DNA of 64,000 nt from a virus: positions 25,020-89,019 of IMG/VR virus record IMGVR_UViG_3300032323_000739. One strand, 5' to 3'. Every line of letters begins with the position of its first letter. Positions within the stretch are counted from its first letter, which is position 1. The notes below the pieces were generated by a model that did not search any database, was not told the DNA's origin, and worked only from the letters and a program-made list of their open reading frames with translations. The position numbers and the translations under genes were made by a program. Below are positions 9,232 through 26,547 of the stretch, piece by piece.

Positions 9232-10124
9232 AAATAAGAATAGCAGAACAAGATATCATTTATCTCAGTTACGATGAACCCAATGCTGAGAAGAATTATG
9301 CAGATTTATTACACAAAGTACCTTGGGCTAAACGTGTACATGGAGTTAAAGGCAGCGATGCCGCACACAAAGCCTGTGCCGCATTAAGCGACACAGAATA
9401 TTTTGTCACAGTTGACGGTGACAATGTTATTGATTCTGAATTTATTAACGTAGAAATCGATTTAGATGAATTAGGGCTTGATGAAAGTTATGTATTCAGT
9501 TGGTGCGGTAAAGTTAACGTTAACGGATTAATGTATGGCAACGGCGGCCTTAAGTTATGGACTCGTAAATTTGTTAACAACATGCGTACACATGAAAATT
9601 CTGACCCTGCTGATACTAAAGGTCTAGTAGAATTTTGTTTTGATGACAAATATTATCAATTCAATACTAATTATTCTACTAGCGTTATTAATGGCAGTGC
9701 TTTCCAAGCCTTCCGTGCAGGATTTCGAGAAGGCGTAAAGATGAGTTTAAATCAAGGAGCCAAAGTTAGTAACATTAAAGACGTGTGGTGGCAAAATTAT
9801 CAACGTCTTTTAATCTGGTCTACGGTTGGCAGTGATGTGGAATATGGAGATTGGGCTATATATGGTGCTCGAGAAGGTTGCTACTTGACTAATTGTACAG
9901 ACTGGGACTATGCCAATGTTCGTGATTTTGAATACCTTACAGAACAGTGGAAAGAAAAATACAGTAAAATTACTGAGGAAATGTTACCATATGAAATTAC
10001 AGGACTTGGTGTAACACTAAAAGAAGAATTAGGTTTAGAAATAGCAGACCTAGATAAACATGGCAGTAAATTTTTTAGAACAGTATATCAAAATACTCCA
10101 AGAATAATTGGAAGAAAACTATGA
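9228..10124 (+). CDS. Phage GT-A-like glycosyltransferase (VDGDN type)
   Basis: 298 aa, ATGA overlap with the upstream gene. It contains IIYLSYDEPNAEKNYADL near residue 10, VPWAKRVHGVKG near 31, and a DxD motif at D63-G-D65 within FVTVDGDN. The same order (SYGEPNAEANW, PLAKRVTNVAG, WVVDGDA, GYGGVKL, FR-E-VK) occurs in the gene at 20699, so the two are paralogs. YGNGGLKLWTRK and AFRAGFREGVKMS are further shared landmarks. This family is frequent in T4-like marine phages and looks like a nucleotide-sugar transferase. Donor and acceptor cannot be inferred. Confidence 0.65.
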   Translation: MKIRIAEQDIIYLSYDEPNAEKNYADLLHKVPWAKRVHGVKGSDAAHKACAALSDTEYFVTVDGDNVIDSEFINVEIDLDELGLDESYVFSWCGKVNVNGLMYGNGGLKLWTRKFVNNMRTHENSDPADTKGLVEFCFDDKYYQFNTNYSTSVINGSAFQAFRAGFREGVKMSLNQGAKVSNIKDVWWQNYQRLLIWSTVGSDVEYGDWAIYGAREGCYLTNCTDWDYANVRDFEYLTEQWKEKYSKITEEMLPYEITGLGVTLKEELGLEIADLDKHGSKFFRTVYQNTPRIIGRKL

Positions 10125-16776: not shown

Positions 16777-18009
16777 ATGAAATTTTTTCGAGAACTAACT
16801 CAAACAGAAAAAGATCGTTGTGTTATTGCAACATATTATATTGAAACGTATTCTGACATAGGAGATTTACGCGATGCCGCTTGGAATCTTGCTATAGGTC
16901 AAAGTGTTGGAAATCCAAAAATACGAAATCAGTGGGAAACTGATGAATTGTTTGAAAGGTCATCCTGTGTGATTTATCACAATGAATCAGAATTAACAGG
17001 CAAGCATAGTGGCACAATTAAGATTGGATTTCCTAAAATAAACTCCGATTGGCAAGGGGATGGCATCAGTCATCTTATGTGTCAATTAATGGGCGGCCAG
17101 ATGGATATTAATGTGTTTAAAGCCTGCAGATTAAAACACATTGAGTTTCCTAAAGATGTCGAACAGCAATTTTTAGGACCTCGACAAGGTATTACGGGTA
17201 TTAGAAAATTTGTTAATCGCTATGACAAACCTCTGTCAGGAGCCATTGTAAAACCTAAAACTGGCATTAGTCCTGCTACTCTAGCAGACATGGTTAAAGA
17301 ATTAATAGACGGCGGTGTAGATTTTATCAAGGAAGACGAGATATTGTCTAACCCTAGTTTTTGTCGTTTAGAGGATCGTGTTGAATTAATTTCTAACATT
17401 GTTAATAATTGCGGTCGTGGAGTTATCTATTGCTTCTGTATTAATGGCGATCATCATACTATTCTTGACCGTGCTAAGTTTGTAGCCAACAATGGCGGTA
17501 ACGGTATTCACATTAATTTCTGGAGCGGTCTAGGAGTTTATAATTCAATACGCAGATTAGATTTTCCATTGTTTATTCATTACCAGAAGAGTGGTGATAA
17601 GATTCTTACAGACAAACGCAACCCGTTTGGTATTGATTGGTCAGTACTGTGTGACCTTGCTGGACTATGCGGTGTAGATACTATTCATGCGGGCATGTGG
17701 GGAGGCTATTTAAGTGACAACGAAGATGAACTTAAATACACCATGGAAACTCTGCATAAACGAAATGTTCTTCCTGCACTAAGTTGTGGCATGCATCCTG
17801 GGATTGTTAATCCAACAGCAGAAAAATTTGGTACTGATTTTCTTGCTAACTGCGGCGGCGCTATACACGGGCACCCAGACGGTACTCTAGCCGGAGCATT
17901 AGCCATGCGTCAGGCCATTGACAAAACTCCTGGAAAAGAGTTTTTGACAGCAATAGAAAAATGGGGCTATGTAGGCGGTTCCTTACCCGAGTGGGTATTA
18001 GATTTTTAA
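16777..18009 (+). CDS. RuBisCO-like protein (form IV-type large-chain homolog)
   Basis: 410 aa from the ATG at 16777, which has AAAGGAA 4 bases upstream; an in-frame TTG at 16732 is less likely. Large-chain signatures: GAIVKPKTG (K159, K161 = Lys175/177 of plant RuBisCO), DFIKEDE (K185, D187, E188 = the carbamylated Lys201 and the Asp203/Glu204 metal ligands), DTIHAG (H304 = His327), LSCG (S336 = Ser379) and NCGGAIHGHPDG (the Gly403/404 phosphate loop). Residues needed for carboxylation appear changed. Loop 6 Lys334 falls in WGGYLSD with no Lys, Arg295 is absent (FIHYQKSG), Asn123 is replaced (MGGQMD), and the Glu60 region reads AIGQSVGN. So it is a RuBisCO-like protein, probably an enolase/isomerase/decarboxylase on a phosphorylated sugar-like substrate, not a CO2-fixing enzyme. 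It sits between a nucleotidyltransferase/cupin and a kinase/cyclase pair. Confidence 0.85.
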   Translation: MKFFRELTQTEKDRCVIATYYIETYSDIGDLRDAAWNLAIGQSVGNPKIRNQWETDELFERSSCVIYHNESELTGKHSGTIKIGFPKINSDWQGDGISHLMCQLMGGQMDINVFKACRLKHIEFPKDVEQQFLGPRQGITGIRKFVNRYDKPLSGAIVKPKTGISPATLADMVKELIDGGVDFIKEDEILSNPSFCRLEDRVELISNIVNNCGRGVIYCFCINGDHHTILDRAKFVANNGGNGIHINFWSGLGVYNSIRRLDFPLFIHYQKSGDKILTDKRNPFGIDWSVLCDLAGLCGVDTIHAGMWGGYLSDNEDELKYTMETLHKRNVLPALSCGMHPGIVNPTAEKFGTDFLANCGGAIHGHPDGTLAGALAMRQAIDKTPGKEFLTAIEKWGYVGGSLPEWVLDF

Positions 18010-18010
18010 T

Positions 18011-18970
18011 ATGGATATAATTGAACTAAAAGGCGGTAGTTTAAATTCAACTTGTTTATATGTTGACGGTGATCGCAAATTTGTAAGAAAAACTATTTCG
18101 ACTACTGCCGATAGAGAATACGGCTATGTACGTTGGTACAGTCAATTAAAAAAATTACAAAGATTTAATCAGATAATTCCCCAGCACGTTCCTCGAGTTC
18201 TGGATGCTGGTGTGTGTGATAAAGGTGCATATTTTGACATTGAATATATTGATGCTAAAGATATTAAAACACTGTTTAAAGAAAATTTACTAGATGCCCA
18301 CCAGACTGAAAAAATGCATCAACAGTTGTGGCAAGCGTTTGATACTTTACATCAACACACTTATCAACCAAACATTAGTAGTTTAAAACTTTATTTTCAG
18401 GAAGAAGTTTTACAAAAAATTAATGATGCTAGACAGTTTTCAGAGTTTGAAAACTTTTATCAAATGGATGTCTATGTACATTGGGGAGAAACATTTAGTG
18501 GTATTAAACATAAATTAGAACAATTATCTAAGTTGTTTGATCAAGTTATAACTACAGAAAGTTACGTACACGGAAATCCAACGCTAGAAAATATTCTTTA
18601 CAGCGAAGAAACAGGTATAGTGTTTATTGACTTATATGAAGAAGGTATTGTAGACAGCAAGTTTATGGACTATAGTCAGATACTACAATGTAGTAGCAGT
18701 TACTACGGTATTCTTAATGACAGTGTGATACGTGTAAAAGGAAACGTTACAGGATTCGACACTAAGTTTCCAAAAAATTTATTGTACTTCGATAAACTGT
18801 TTAATGAAGAATTAGAGCGTAGATTTACAAATCAGGAATATTTGTTGATAAGATTATTTGAAGCCACACAGTTTTTTCGTATGTTGCCGTTTAAATGTCA
18901 CGCTGGAAACATAGAAGCGGCAAAGTTTTTTTATGCTCATGCTTGCGCTCTCGTAAATAAACTATTATGA
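18011..18970 (+). CDS. APH-like kinase with altered catalytic loop
   Basis: 319 aa. An N-terminal nucleotide-binding lobe (GGSLNSTCLYVDGDRKFVRKTI) is followed by IEYIDAKDI as hinge. The catalytic loop is YVHGNPTLENILY (H187-G-N189 ... N194), and FIDLYEEG (D207) occupies the metal-binding position. In aminoglycoside/choline-type phosphotransferases the loop is HGD; here Asp is replaced by Asn189, so phosphotransfer may be weak, altered or lost. Starts two bases after the RuBisCO-like gene and overlaps the cyclase gene (ATGA). In context it could phosphorylate a sugar or cyclitol; this is inferred. Confidence 0.65.
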   Translation: MDIIELKGGSLNSTCLYVDGDRKFVRKTISTTADREYGYVRWYSQLKKLQRFNQIIPQHVPRVLDAGVCDKGAYFDIEYIDAKDIKTLFKENLLDAHQTEKMHQQLWQAFDTLHQHTYQPNISSLKLYFQEEVLQKINDARQFSEFENFYQMDVYVHWGETFSGIKHKLEQLSKLFDQVITTESYVHGNPTLENILYSEETGIVFIDLYEEGIVDSKFMDYSQILQCSSSYYGILNDSVIRVKGNVTGFDTKFPKNLLYFDKLFNEELERRFTNQEYLLIRLFEATQFFRMLPFKCHAGNIEAAKFFYAHACALVNKLL

Positions 18971-20028
18971 CATGGCGTGTAAAGACTACCCTTCCTGTAG
19001 AGTTTGATATAGTCAAAGTACCTAATGCATTGGATTGGGACATAATTCCCGGTCAGCGTAGAATAGCCGTGGTTGATGAAACAGTCTATGCTTTGTACAA
19101 AGACAAAATTCCCGCTGGCACAGAGATTTTTACAGTACGCAGTACAGAATCTGAAAAAGATTGGAAAAACGCCGAACGTGTTTTACAGTTTTTTCAAGAT
19201 ATAAAATTACTACGGAGAGAAACGGTTATTGCTGTAGGCGGTGGAGTTCTTTTAGACTTAGTAGGATTTTGTTGCAGTATATATCGTAGAGGTGTTCCTT
19301 ATGTTAGAATACCAACTACACTATTGGCTATTGTTGATGCTAGTGTAGGTGCAAAAACAAGCATTAATCATTTTGGGTTTAGAAATAGAATTGGTAGTTT
19401 TTATCCACCGACATTGACATTAATTGATAAGTCTTTTATTAAAACACAAGATCACAGAGAAATATCAAACGGCATGGCAGAAATTTTAAAGTTAGCCATA
19501 GTTCTTGATTATCAATTATTTGAATTAATTGAACTTAATCCGCAGGAATTACTAAGACTTAAATTTCAAAATTATGTGTTAGCAGATAAAATAATTGATC
19601 GTGCAATTTCGGGTATGACTGAAGAACTGAATGATAATCTTTGGGAACGAGACTTACAGCGTCCTGTAGATTTTGGACATACATTTAGTCCTATGGTTGA
19701 AATGAAAAATGTTCCTAATTTGTTACATGGTGAAGCAGTAATGTTAGATTGTCTTTTAAGTGCTTGTATTAGTAATTTAAGAGGATATATCAGCAACGAT
19801 CATTTACACCGTATTTTTAAAACTGTTCGCAGTTGTGACTTGCCTACAGAACACAAAGATTTTTATAATGTTGACCTGCTGTGGGCAGGTTTACAAGATG
19901 TAATGAACCATCGCAATGGTAATCAATATATACCTGTTCCTATAAGTATTGGCCGTTGCGAAATTATCAATGACGTAACACGCAGTGAAATAGAACAGGC
20001 CTGCGACCGAATGAGAAGTATGCAATGA
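18967..20028 (+). CDS. Sugar phosphate cyclase (3-dehydroquinate synthase superfamily)
   Basis: 353 aa, the normal length for the family. AVGGGVLLDLVGF (residues 89-101) is the NAD-binding glycine motif, and RIPTTLLAIVDASVGAKTSIN is the conserved central block. Zn ligands E172 (GMAEILK), H238 (DFGHTF) and H254 (LLHGEAV) are all present. AroB enzymes have an Arg and an Asn just before the GHTF block that bind the substrate carboxylate. Here the segment reads LQRPVDFGHTFSPMVEM, with Asp235 in the Asn position, which is more like 2-epi-5-epi-valiolone synthase-type cyclases acting on sedoheptulose 7-phosphate. It likely makes a cyclitol rather than dehydroquinate. Superfamily call firm; the subfamily is a reading by eye. 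Confidence 0.8.
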   Translation: MTWRVKTTLPVEFDIVKVPNALDWDIIPGQRRIAVVDETVYALYKDKIPAGTEIFTVRSTESEKDWKNAERVLQFFQDIKLLRRETVIAVGGGVLLDLVGFCCSIYRRGVPYVRIPTTLLAIVDASVGAKTSINHFGFRNRIGSFYPPTLTLIDKSFIKTQDHREISNGMAEILKLAIVLDYQLFELIELNPQELLRLKFQNYVLADKIIDRAISGMTEELNDNLWERDLQRPVDFGHTFSPMVEMKNVPNLLHGEAVMLDCLLSACISNLRGYISNDHLHRIFKTVRSCDLPTEHKDFYNVDLLWAGLQDVMNHRNGNQYIPVPISIGRCEIINDVTRSEIEQACDRMRSMQ

Positions 20029-20699
20029 AAACAGTATTAATTACAGGTTCTAGTCGAGGGCTAGGTAAAGCACTGACAGAAACATTTTTACAAAATGGAT
20101 GGAAAGTTGTTGGAGTTAGTAGAACAGATTTAAAGAGTTATGACAACTATACACACATAGTTGCTGATGTGGCTAATATTGGCCAAGTCCATACTGCATT
20201 TGATCTACTTAAAAAAACTAAAACTAAAATTGATGTGTTAATAAACAATACGGCTGCTTTTCATATGGGCGACTTTGCAGATTCAAAATATTTTGATATT
20301 GCGAATGTTATTGATACTAATGTAAAAGGCACAATGTATGTGACTAATCAAGCGTTAACAATAATGGAGCCAGGTTCAAAAGTTGTTTTTGTTAACAGTG
20401 TAGCAGGACTAAGAGAAATTCAACATCAGAGCATTTACTGTGCCAGCAAGGCTGCTTTAAAAAGTTTTGCCGGAGTGTTAGGCCAAGAACTTAGACAGAG
20501 GGGTATAAAAGTATCTAGTATACATCCAGGCGGCATTAACACAACCTTATGGAATGAAAATAATCCATATCCTTGCGGTGATGTTACTAACGCTTTAGAT
20601 CCACACCATCTTTCAGAAATGATCTATCGCATCTCGTCTGATACTAGTAATACTGAATACAAAACTATAACAATGTTTCCTGAAGTGGAGTGGCACTAA
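20025..20699 (+). CDS. Short-chain dehydrogenase/reductase
   Basis: 224 aa classical SDR. TGSSRGLG (residues 7-14) binds NAD(P), INNTA is the NNAG-like motif, and the catalytic residues are S125 (VNSVAG), Y138 and K142 (YCASK). HPGGINTTLW follows, as in family members. The Arg-containing TGSSRGLG and VVGVSRTD suggest NADP preference, which is inferred. ATGA overlap with the cyclase gene immediately upstream points to oxidation or reduction of the cyclase product or a related intermediate. Confidence 0.85.
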   Translation: MKTVLITGSSRGLGKALTETFLQNGWKVVGVSRTDLKSYDNYTHIVADVANIGQVHTAFDLLKKTKTKIDVLINNTAAFHMGDFADSKYFDIANVIDTNVKGTMYVTNQALTIMEPGSKVVFVNSVAGLREIQHQSIYCASKAALKSFAGVLGQELRQRGIKVSSIHPGGINTTLWNENNPYPCGDVTNALDPHHLSEMIYRISSDTSNTEYKTITMFPEVEWH

Positions 20700-24509: not shown

Positions 24510-25433
24510 ATGAAAATTTTAATGACCGGAACCAGTGGATTTATCGGATCACATCTTAAACCACTGATTGAAAAAAATCATACTTTTTACTCTCTTAAAA
24601 GCGATTTGTTAGATTTTGAAGCAGTAACCAAAGAAGTATTAGATTTTAAACCAGATGTCATAGTACACCTTGGTGCTCGTACAGAAGTTGAAAAAAGTTT
24701 TTATGAGCAAATAACATTTAGTCAAATTAATTATGTTGGTAGCGTCAACTTAATCGAAGCGGCTAGCAAAGTAGAGAATTTTAAAAATTTTGTTTTTGCC
24801 AGTACCATGGAAGTGTATGGCTGGCAACCTATTAGCGACGAAATTAAAGATAACGGTCAACCTTTAAATCATGTTGCGTTTGATGAAAATACCGAACCTC
24901 ACCCTAATGCTCCCTATGCTGTAGCCAAATACGGTGTAGAAAAATATCTTGAATATATGCATCGTAGTTGCGGCTTTCCTTTTAGTGCCATTCGTCAGAC
25001 TAATAGTTATGGTCGTAAAGATAATGATTTCTTTGTTGTAGAACAAATTATTACACAGATGTTAAAAAATCCTAATGAGGTAAATTTTGGTTATGCCGAG
25101 CCTTTTCGCAATTTTATTTTTATTGATGATTTACTTGCCGCTTGGATGACATTAATAGAAGATCCTAACATCGGTAAAACAGGAAAAATTTTTACAGTAG
25201 GACCAGACAATCCTATCAAGATAAAAGATCTAGCCAGCATTATTGCTAAGAAACTAAACTGGAACGGTGCAATTAACTGGAATAAAAAACCTAAGCGTCA
25301 GGGAGAAATTTACTGGTTAAACAGCAACCATAATCTTTTAACTAAACACACTGGGTGGACTCCTAAGGTTAGTTTAAATGACGGCATTGATCGAACTATA
25401 GAAATTTGGAGAAACATTTTACATGTTAAATGA
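24510..25433 (+). CDS. NAD-dependent epimerase/dehydratase (extended SDR)
   Basis: 307 aa. TGTSGFIG (residues 6-13) is the GxxGxxG NAD-binding motif. HLGARTEVEKS is the expected strand after domain II, SST-like residues occur in FASTMEVYG, and Y136-AVA-K140 is the catalytic YxxxK. RQTNSYG and EPFRNFIFIDDL are the substrate-domain landmarks of nucleotide-sugar epimerases/dehydratases. Preceded by AAGGAA. It would act on a nucleotide sugar in the cytoplasm. Overlaps the following gene by 11 bases, so probably one step before or after that oxygenase. Confidence 0.85.
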   Translation: MKILMTGTSGFIGSHLKPLIEKNHTFYSLKSDLLDFEAVTKEVLDFKPDVIVHLGARTEVEKSFYEQITFSQINYVGSVNLIEAASKVENFKNFVFASTMEVYGWQPISDEIKDNGQPLNHVAFDENTEPHPNAPYAVAKYGVEKYLEYMHRSCGFPFSAIRQTNSYGRKDNDFFVVEQIITQMLKNPNEVNFGYAEPFRNFIFIDDLLAAWMTLIEDPNIGKTGKIFTVGPDNPIKIKDLASIIAKKLNWNGAINWNKKPKRQGEIYWLNSNHNLLTKHTGWTPKVSLNDGIDRTIEIWRNILHVK

Positions 25434-26547
25434 ACTGCAAACTCATTGGGACAACAAAGTTGTTAATTACAATTTAGAAAAGTATAACTGGCCTGCGTGG
25501 GCGTTAAGTGTCATACAAGAAGTTGCACCACAAGTAAAAGAACTTGAAACAATGCATGAAGTTCTTACTCCCGTTGAGATTGTGCGGGTAAGTCAGCATG
25601 TGCAAAATTCATGCAGTCGTAAAGATTTTATGGAACGATTTGATGAATTTGCCGCAGGCATAGTTCCACAACGAATTGCTGGTAAACGTTACATGATTCA
25701 ACGTCAAGGCACTCTTCGTGTGGTAATTCCCAATCAAGAAAGCGTAGGACGTAGACTGGCGTTTCATCAAGGTATTTTTGTAGGAAATGGTCGCGGTTGT
25801 CGTACTATCTGGACCCCATTTACAGAAGCCAAAGGTACTAATACTATGTGGATGTTAGACTTAGATATTAGTCGAGAAATTACAAAACGTGTGCTTGCTG
25901 AAAAGTGGAGTCTTGAAAAGTTTGAAGAAGAAAGTCTAAAACATGCCTGGCCTGTTACACTGGAACCCGGCCAAAGCCACTTGTTCTTTCAAGAACATAT
26001 ACATGGCAATAAAAATAACACAGAGGGATATACTCGTGTTAGTATGGACATGCGTATTCTTATTGAAGGCGAAGAGTGGGGTCGTAGACTTCCTGGCGGA
26101 TTTATGCGACTGCCAGGCGACTATGAAGTTGCAGACACAATGGACTATACTGGTAAAAGTTTTATTACCTATGCTGGTTGGAATAGTAAGTTTAGTAAAG
26201 ATATTCCATTACCGATGCAACGTGCAATTATAGAGCCATACTGTCAAAAGAATAAGATTGCTTATACAAGTTACGAGTTTGAAAATGAACACATGGACTG
26301 GCAACCTGGACTAGAATACTACATTAAAGAACGTCCAGACGGTATTGTACTGTGCAGTATGTACTGTCTAACAGACGACGTGCAACGACGTAGCGAATTA
26401 CTGCAACTGGCATTAGATCTAGGTGTAGAACTACACTTTGCCAACGAACTAGTAAGTTTAAAGTCAAAGAAAGATTTAGAAAAAATCGAAACCTATCTAA
26501 ACTTTGCTGTACCTAAAAAAGGTCCGCATGTGTGGGAAGAACAATAA
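25423..26547 (+). CDS. Fusion: 2OG-oxygenase-like domain plus 'sporadic carbohydrate cluster' domain
   Basis: 374 aa. Residues ~1-225 resemble the 2OG-Fe(II) oxygenases of 'sporadic carbohydrate clusters': RLAFHQGIFVGNGRG, IWTPFTEAKGTNTMWMLDL, then HLFFQEHIHGNKNNTEGYTRVSMDMRI (distal His194, Arg205). Residues ~245-360 (FITYAGWNSKFSKDIPLPMQ, DGIVLCSMYCLTDD, LGVELHFANE) resemble the LIC12192-type protein usually encoded separately in those clusters. The expected HxD metal motif reads H115-Q-G, lacking the Asp. An Asp-to-Gly change is characteristic of 2OG-dependent halogenases, but may also be normal for this subfamily or mark lost activity. Family names are from memory of the sequence patterns. 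Confidence 0.65.
   Translation: MLNELQTHWDNKVVNYNLEKYNWPAWALSVIQEVAPQVKELETMHEVLTPVEIVRVSQHVQNSCSRKDFMERFDEFAAGIVPQRIAGKRYMIQRQGTLRVVIPNQESVGRRLAFHQGIFVGNGRGCRTIWTPFTEAKGTNTMWMLDLDISREITKRVLAEKWSLEKFEEESLKHAWPVTLEPGQSHLFFQEHIHGNKNNTEGYTRVSMDMRILIEGEEWGRRLPGGFMRLPGDYEVADTMDYTGKSFITYAGWNSKFSKDIPLPMQRAIIEPYCQKNKIAYTSYEFENEHMDWQPGLEYYIKERPDGIVLCSMYCLTDDVQRRSELLQLALDLGVELHFANELVSLKSKKDLEKIETYLNFAVPKKGPHVWEEQ

Follow-up and report, generated by a model that had tools for sequence, protein, structure and literature searches.

Does a RuBisCO homologue carried by a virus fix carbon, or does it serve some other chemistry? We addressed this question for one gene in a 64,000-nucleotide stretch of DNA (the window, positions 25,020 to 89,019 of the 89,019-bp IMG/VR virus record IMGVR_UViG_3300032323_000739), which an initial annotation of the sequence had described as encoding a RuBisCO-like protein (RLP) within a phage glycan operon. 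Novel RuBisCO groups and homologues are frequent in marine metagenomes, as seen in the Global Ocean Sampling (GOS) data (PMC1821046), and most RLPs whose function is known take part in catabolism or in methionine salvage (PMC6302742). A search of open-licence papers for viral RLPs or for IV-GOS function returned nothing on the clade described here, which may have been described earlier elsewhere.

Identity of the protein and phage origin of the contig

The RLP gene starts at an ATG at position 16,777 with AGAAAGGAAAAG directly upstream (Table 1). Homology to RuBisCO, as proposed in the initial annotation, was far above chance by Pfam, PDB and Foldseek. The protein matched Pfam RuBisCO_large (E = 2.2e-43), cleared the curated cut-off of PF00016 (149 bits vs. 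30.1), which places it in the RuBisCO superfamily, and matched 99 PDB chains at E ≤ 1e-3, the best being form III. All motifs listed in that annotation were found again (KPK at residues 159–161, KEDE at 185–188, DTIHAG at 301–306, SCG at 336–338 and CGGAIHGHP at 359–367), and the structure prediction that it had called for, an AlphaFold model with pLDDT 92.8 built with 38 homologues as input, returned a RuBisCO fold with the type III enzyme 3a12 as top Foldseek match (TM 0.85, E = 8e-36). Compared with its closest relatives, RLP had a dN/dS of ~0.04–0.06 (0.020/0.48 for L002 and 0.086/1.36 for L006), and because of this low ratio we regard it as a real protein under purifying selection.

The record had phage-family matches to a late sigma factor, baseplate wedge and hub proteins, a virion structural protein, tail fiber proteins, an exonuclease and an ATPase, and on account of these matches we assign it, by gene content, to a T4-like phage. 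No capsid or terminase match was present in the 89,019-bp record, which is a fragment; a T4 Gp23-type capsid gene was found in 7 of the 15 RLP-bearing virus records tested. The phage glycan-operon setting proposed for the gene was thus borne out: the contig is a genuine phage sequence, and RLP is part of a cluster of glycan genes. Among the other records, IMGVR_UViG_3300017917_001342 is a very large viral contig (518,643 bp) with both a Gp23-type capsid gene and the gene cassette described below. Upstream (5') of the window in its own record, a single open frame of ~3,840 amino acids lies between baseplate and tail fiber genes (L199, 58–11571).

Table 1 Genes of the window and active-site segments of RLP, in window coordinates
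Feature	Position	Strand	Basis
RuBisCO-like protein (RLP), 410 aa	16777..18009	+	Pfam, PDB and Foldseek matches, AlphaFold model
G: sugar-phosphate nucleotidyltransferase (NTP_transferase), 240 aa	15688..16410	+	PF00483, E = 8.5e-8
H: small cupin, 111 aa	16410..16745	+	homologue L012 weak Cupin_7/Cupin_2, E 5e-4/3e-3
V: miniature GDPD-like protein, 148 aa	11518..11964	+	GDPD profile and fold matches
Fructosamine-kinase/APH-like kinase	18011..18970	+	window-group neighbor, 8/101 loci
DHQ-synthase family sugar-phosphate cyclase	18967..20028	+	closest 4p53, 5tpr; 8/101 loci
SDR oxidoreductase	20025..20699	+	Pfam; not a conserved partner
RLP GQSVGNP: E60→G, T65→N, W66→P	16897..16917	+	alignment
RLP GG (106–107): N123→G	17092..17097	+	alignment
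RLP KPK: K175 and K177 kept	17251..17259	+	alignment
RLP KEDE: carbamate Lys201 and metal ligands D203/E204 kept	17329..17340	+	alignment
RLP QKSGD: H294→Q, R295→K, H298→D	17584..17598	+	alignment
RLP GMWGGY, loop 6: K334→Y, invariant in 101	17692..17709	+	alignment
RLP SCG: S379 and G381 kept, G380→C	17782..17790	+	alignment
RLP GG, phosphate loop (G403, G404) kept	17854..17859	+	alignment

Active-site residues kept and lost

We aligned 101 clade members with form I, form II, form III, OiaX-type and MtnW references. The carbamate Lys201 and the metal ligands Asp203 and Glu204 were present in 101 of 101 members, in agreement with the carbamylation lysine and both acidic ligands noted initially. 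K175 and K177 were also kept across the clade, as were S379, G381, G403 and G404 in nearly all members and His327 in 97 of them. E60G, T65N, W66P, N123G, D202E, H294Q, K334Y and G380C were found in every member, including the four positions by which membership of forms I–III was assessed (Lys334, Asn123, Glu60 and His294, replaced by Tyr, Gly, Gly and Gln). The reported lack of Lys334 and Asn123 therefore stands, and E60G, T65N, W66P, H294Q and G380C add to the losses; Arg295, listed as missing too, is conservatively replaced by Lys in 100 of 101 members and is Arg in the remaining one. As a RuBisCO homologue without carboxylation-essential residues in the alignment, the protein is a form IV RLP in the broad sense.

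Lys334, Glu60 and Asn123 serve CO2 addition in the RuBisCO mechanism, while Lys201-Mg2+ and Lys175 serve enolization. Because the former set is lost and the latter kept, the alignment indicates that carboxylation by RLP is very unlikely and that enolization or enolate chemistry is plausible. Of the two phosphate sites, P1 has changed in part, a backbone NH being lost through W66P, and P2 has undergone the conservative exchange R295K; T65N and W66P may weaken the P1 site and leave the phosphate position uncertain, and we therefore claim no such position for the substrate.

The protein shares its fold, at the TM score given above, and the carbamate Lys, D203/E204, K175/K177, S379 and G403/G404 with form III RuBisCOs (Pyrococcus horikoshii 2cwx, Thermococcus kodakarensis 3a12/3kdo), but differs from them by E60G, T65N, W66P, N123G, H294Q, R295K and K334Y, shows only ~28–30% identity and has no carboxylase context. 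MtnW, the form IV DK-MTP-1-P enolase, resembles it in performing enolase chemistry in a RuBisCO fold with E60 replaced by Gly and the loop-6 Lys lost, but MtnW also lacks His327 and the basic residue at 295, and its context is methionine salvage. OiaX and related RLPs found beside four-carbon acid sugar kinases are likewise of form IV type with an intact metal site, and OiaX has Gly at position 123; unlike the clade, they keep the loop-6 Lys and Arg295, have catabolic neighbors and fall on a separate branch.

Phylogeny and distribution

In a tree with references from forms I–III, OiaX and MtnW, the clade formed a single branch (support 100/99, stem 1.71) outside all of them, so that both its placement and the Tyr in place of the loop-6 Lys agree with the non-form I–III assignment made initially. 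Some reference branches were long, and the sister group is therefore not fixed. The novel RuBisCO homologues of the GOS data come from marine metagenomes (PMC1821046), as, for the most part, does clade IV-GOS, and the members of the present clade in SAR11 and in aquatic phages resemble them in this respect.

Viral relatives numbered 247 in one scan and 297 in an alignment-based scan, which puts the number of viral contigs with this form of RLP at 297 or more, while none of the isolated phages in INPHARED (50,697 records) gave a match. We found 21 cellular loci in GTDB contigs, from SAR11 single cells, Legionella, Azospirillum, Elusimicrobia, Verrucomicrobia, Bacteroidota and small archaea, and occurrence in cells was sporadic (2 of the 297 genomes of one SAR11 family). 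At least three label changes were needed to account for the viral sequences in the tree. SAR11 sequences formed two separate groups, and because one of these nests among viral sequences, the tree suggests exchange of the gene between phages and cells. A 3.3-kb contig in a Crocinitomicaceae MAG (L082) encodes an RLP identical to that of viral L045 over the tree columns and may be a viral contig binned into this MAG.

A conserved four-gene cassette

Across 101 loci, the genes that recurred with RLP were G, a sugar-phosphate nucleotidyltransferase (95 loci), H, a small cupin (69 loci, directly before RLP in 60 of these), and V, a miniature GDPD-like protein (69 loci), and together with RLP they make up the cassette. 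Among 904 genes lying more than six genes from RLP, there were one match to G, four to V and none to H. When only loci with three genes on both sides of RLP were counted, G was no more than three genes away, on the same strand, at 65 of 66 viral loci and at all 15 cellular loci; the viral exception, L079, has G four genes away. Six-frame searches placed G close to RLP in L091 and L097 and likewise recovered the partner in L096, and four further loci (L028, L032, L087 and L102) are truncated where their contigs end, such that G occurs within four genes of RLP in every locus with enough flank. In the window, G overlaps H by one base and V sits ~5 kb upstream of RLP, to which it is adjacent elsewhere. 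The nearest PDB structure to G, 4evw, is described only as a nucleoside-diphosphate-sugar pyrophosphorylase.

Gene order varied, with V-RLP-H-G intact in Azospirillum (L097) and Elusimicrobia (L096), G-H-RLP-V in many phages and V-G-RLP in others. That the same partners persist from phylum to phylum although their order is shuffled strongly supports, at the level of gene content, a pathway shared by G, H, V and RLP. In phages such as L049, a DnaB-like helicase precedes a compact V-G-RLP-(GT-like)-methyltransferase block; proteins of clusters 17 and 4 appear GT-like from a motif and local annotation. In Legionella, LicD (PF04991, E = 1e-42) lies divergently beside RLP and G, and this arrangement recurs in three species (L098, 8627–9478 on the minus strand, and also L099 and L100). 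Synechococcus phages (Kyanoviridae, L113–L118) carry G, H and V together without RLP, and their G is in many cases a fusion with a HAD phosphatase-like domain. Because these isolated cyanophages lack RLP, G, H and V constitute a wider phage glycan toolkit in which RLP is one option. For two cyanophage proteins near V (522 aa and 370 aa) we dropped a phosphonate interpretation, because by sequence they look like two nucleotidyltransferase-type halves and a protein locally similar to a GT61-type glycosyltransferase in L092.

The assignment of V draws on motifs, profiles and fold. It carries HRG, EN, E-x-D and GHD motifs with invariant H11, R12, E40, D42 and H54, its profile matched the GDPD 7e0v (E = 8e-5), and a profile comparison connected it with the full-length PF03009 protein of a Nanoarchaeia RLP locus (L093). 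The AlphaFold model (pLDDT 96) had the GDPD 3no3 as top Foldseek match (E = 3.7e-3, TM 0.56), and the HRG, E-x-D and His motifs together with a GDPD fold are what we took to define the family. V differs from the family in its modest TM score, in its length of only ~150 amino acids, where GDPD proteins normally have ~250, and in its lack of direct database hits, the window copy having none in NCBIfam and homologue L012 none in Pfam.

Proposed function and alternatives

Because the CO2-fixing residues are lost, the metal site is kept and G is almost always adjacent, the most likely role of RLP is in making an unusual building block of surface sugars and not in carbon fixation. On balance, we favor a non-carboxylating form-IV-type Mg2+/carbamate enolase-isomerase whose phosphorylated product is activated by G for glycan decoration. 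Carbamylated Lys201 with Mg2+ (D203, E204) and Lys175 would deprotonate a phosphorylated keto-sugar-like substrate, and the enediolate would be re-protonated elsewhere to give an isomer or tautomer. RLP, possibly with the cupin H, would thus make a phosphorylated building block that G could turn into an NDP-activated donor, and neighboring glycosyltransferases, or the LicD phosphotransferase in Legionella, might attach this donor to a surface glycan. A phosphodiester linkage of the substituent, weakly hinted at by LicD and by the GDPD-like partner, is in our view doubtful. The proposal is based on the fold, monophyly, the invariant altered active site, purifying selection and phage context, as well as on the near-obligatory linkage to G and the common presence of the small cupin and GDPD-like protein. 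There is precedent in capsule synthesis, where D-fructose-6-P is converted to CDP-6-D-fructose, i.e., a ketose phosphate is activated via its non-anomeric phosphate (PMC10918830); the activating enzyme there belongs to PF01128, whereas G belongs to PF00483. Counting against the proposal, conserved linkage gives no reaction order, GDPD chemistry is unexplained in a biosynthetic cassette, LicD is found in one genus only and is divergently transcribed, and the homologues of G, H and V in cyanophages without RLP mean that these partners are not specific to RLP. We rejected a choline-phosphate route (GDPD, kinase, LicC-like, LicD) because it assigns no function to RLP and includes a kinase that is not conserved.

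The initial annotation had correctly anticipated a non-carboxylating RLP with a metal/carbamate site; its suggestion that the substrate is made by neighboring genes of the window was not supported. The kinase, cyclase and SDR genes accompany RLP in only 8 of 101 loci and are missing beside RLPs 82–88% identical to that of the window, and we rejected them as its conserved pathway; the conserved partners are instead G, the cupin and the mini-GDPD, which had not been tied to RLP. Action on a C7 ketose or cyclitol phosphate from this cyclase, kinase and SDR, as the cyclase gene two genes downstream of RLP (closest to 4p53 and 5tpr) could suggest, is accordingly a poor prospect. A decarboxylase or retro-Claisen activity of RLP toward a phosphorylated 3-oxo acid, such as OiaX has toward 3-oxo-isoapionate-4-phosphate (OiaX-class activities are summarized in PMC6302742), is in our judgment also unlikely. 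N123→G and an intact metal site are common to OiaX and the clade, and decarboxylation proceeds by enolate chemistry of the same kind, but OiaX-type RLPs retain the loop-6 Lys and Arg295 in the alignment, the clade stands apart from OiaX in the tree, and the OiaX equivalog NF042437 scored 151.7 bits against a cut-off of 700. Moreover, four-carbon acid sugar kinases, which accompany several OiaX-related RLPs, were not seen among the subset of neighbors that had been annotated.

Changes at several substrate-contact residues would be expected of a non-catalytic protein with a structural or regulatory role, a reading made scarcely credible by the invariance of the metal/carbamate site and both catalytic lysines in 101 divergent members and by the low dN/dS. 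Capture by phages of a true RuBisCO, or of the MtnW methionine-salvage enolase, is barely tenable: the nearest solved structures are form III RuBisCOs and the best NCBIfam score is to type III, yet this score is 206 against a curated cut-off of 497, the MtnW equivalog TIGR03332 reached 123.7 bits vs. 513.6, Lys334, Asn123, Glu60 and His294 are lost throughout the clade, and annotated neighbors included no RuBP or methionine-salvage genes.

If our favored reading of RLP as an enolase-isomerase is extended to the whole cassette, it is close to an even call whether the mini-GDPD, RLP isomerase, cupin and nucleotidyltransferase form a previously undescribed module, shared by aquatic T4-like phages and bacteria or archaea, that makes an NDP-activated, possibly phosphodiester-linked keto-sugar or polyol. 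We know of no other RuBisCO-family enzyme with a role in glycan biosynthesis, and the RLP of such a module would be the first to our knowledge. A fixed altered active site in a nucleotide-sugar-type cassette indicates a biosynthetic role in surface glycans that is testable with four proteins, and Azospirillum oleiclasticum, a cultured organism with the full cassette, is a place to find the sugar. RuBisCO homologues in viral metagenomes need not mean viral carbon fixation, and gene counts that label the contigs of this clade as RuBisCO would mislead.

Other genes of the window

The cyclase matched 4p53 ('Cyclase') with 262 bits and 5tpr with 220 bits, compared to at most 146 bits for ordinary DHQ synthases. 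As we take 4p53 and 5tpr to be C7 cyclases, the gene probably encodes a phage C7 sugar-phosphate cyclase, beside the kinase and SDR. Radical SAM proteins occur within and beyond the glycan region (window positions 10121, 21336, 23580, 35591 and 43752), one of them of the twitch-domain type (345 bits vs. a 170-bit cut-off). The gene at 25423–26547 is an apparent fusion of a 'sporadic carbohydrate cluster' 2OG-Fe(II) oxygenase and a LIC12192-like protein, both below curated cut-offs.
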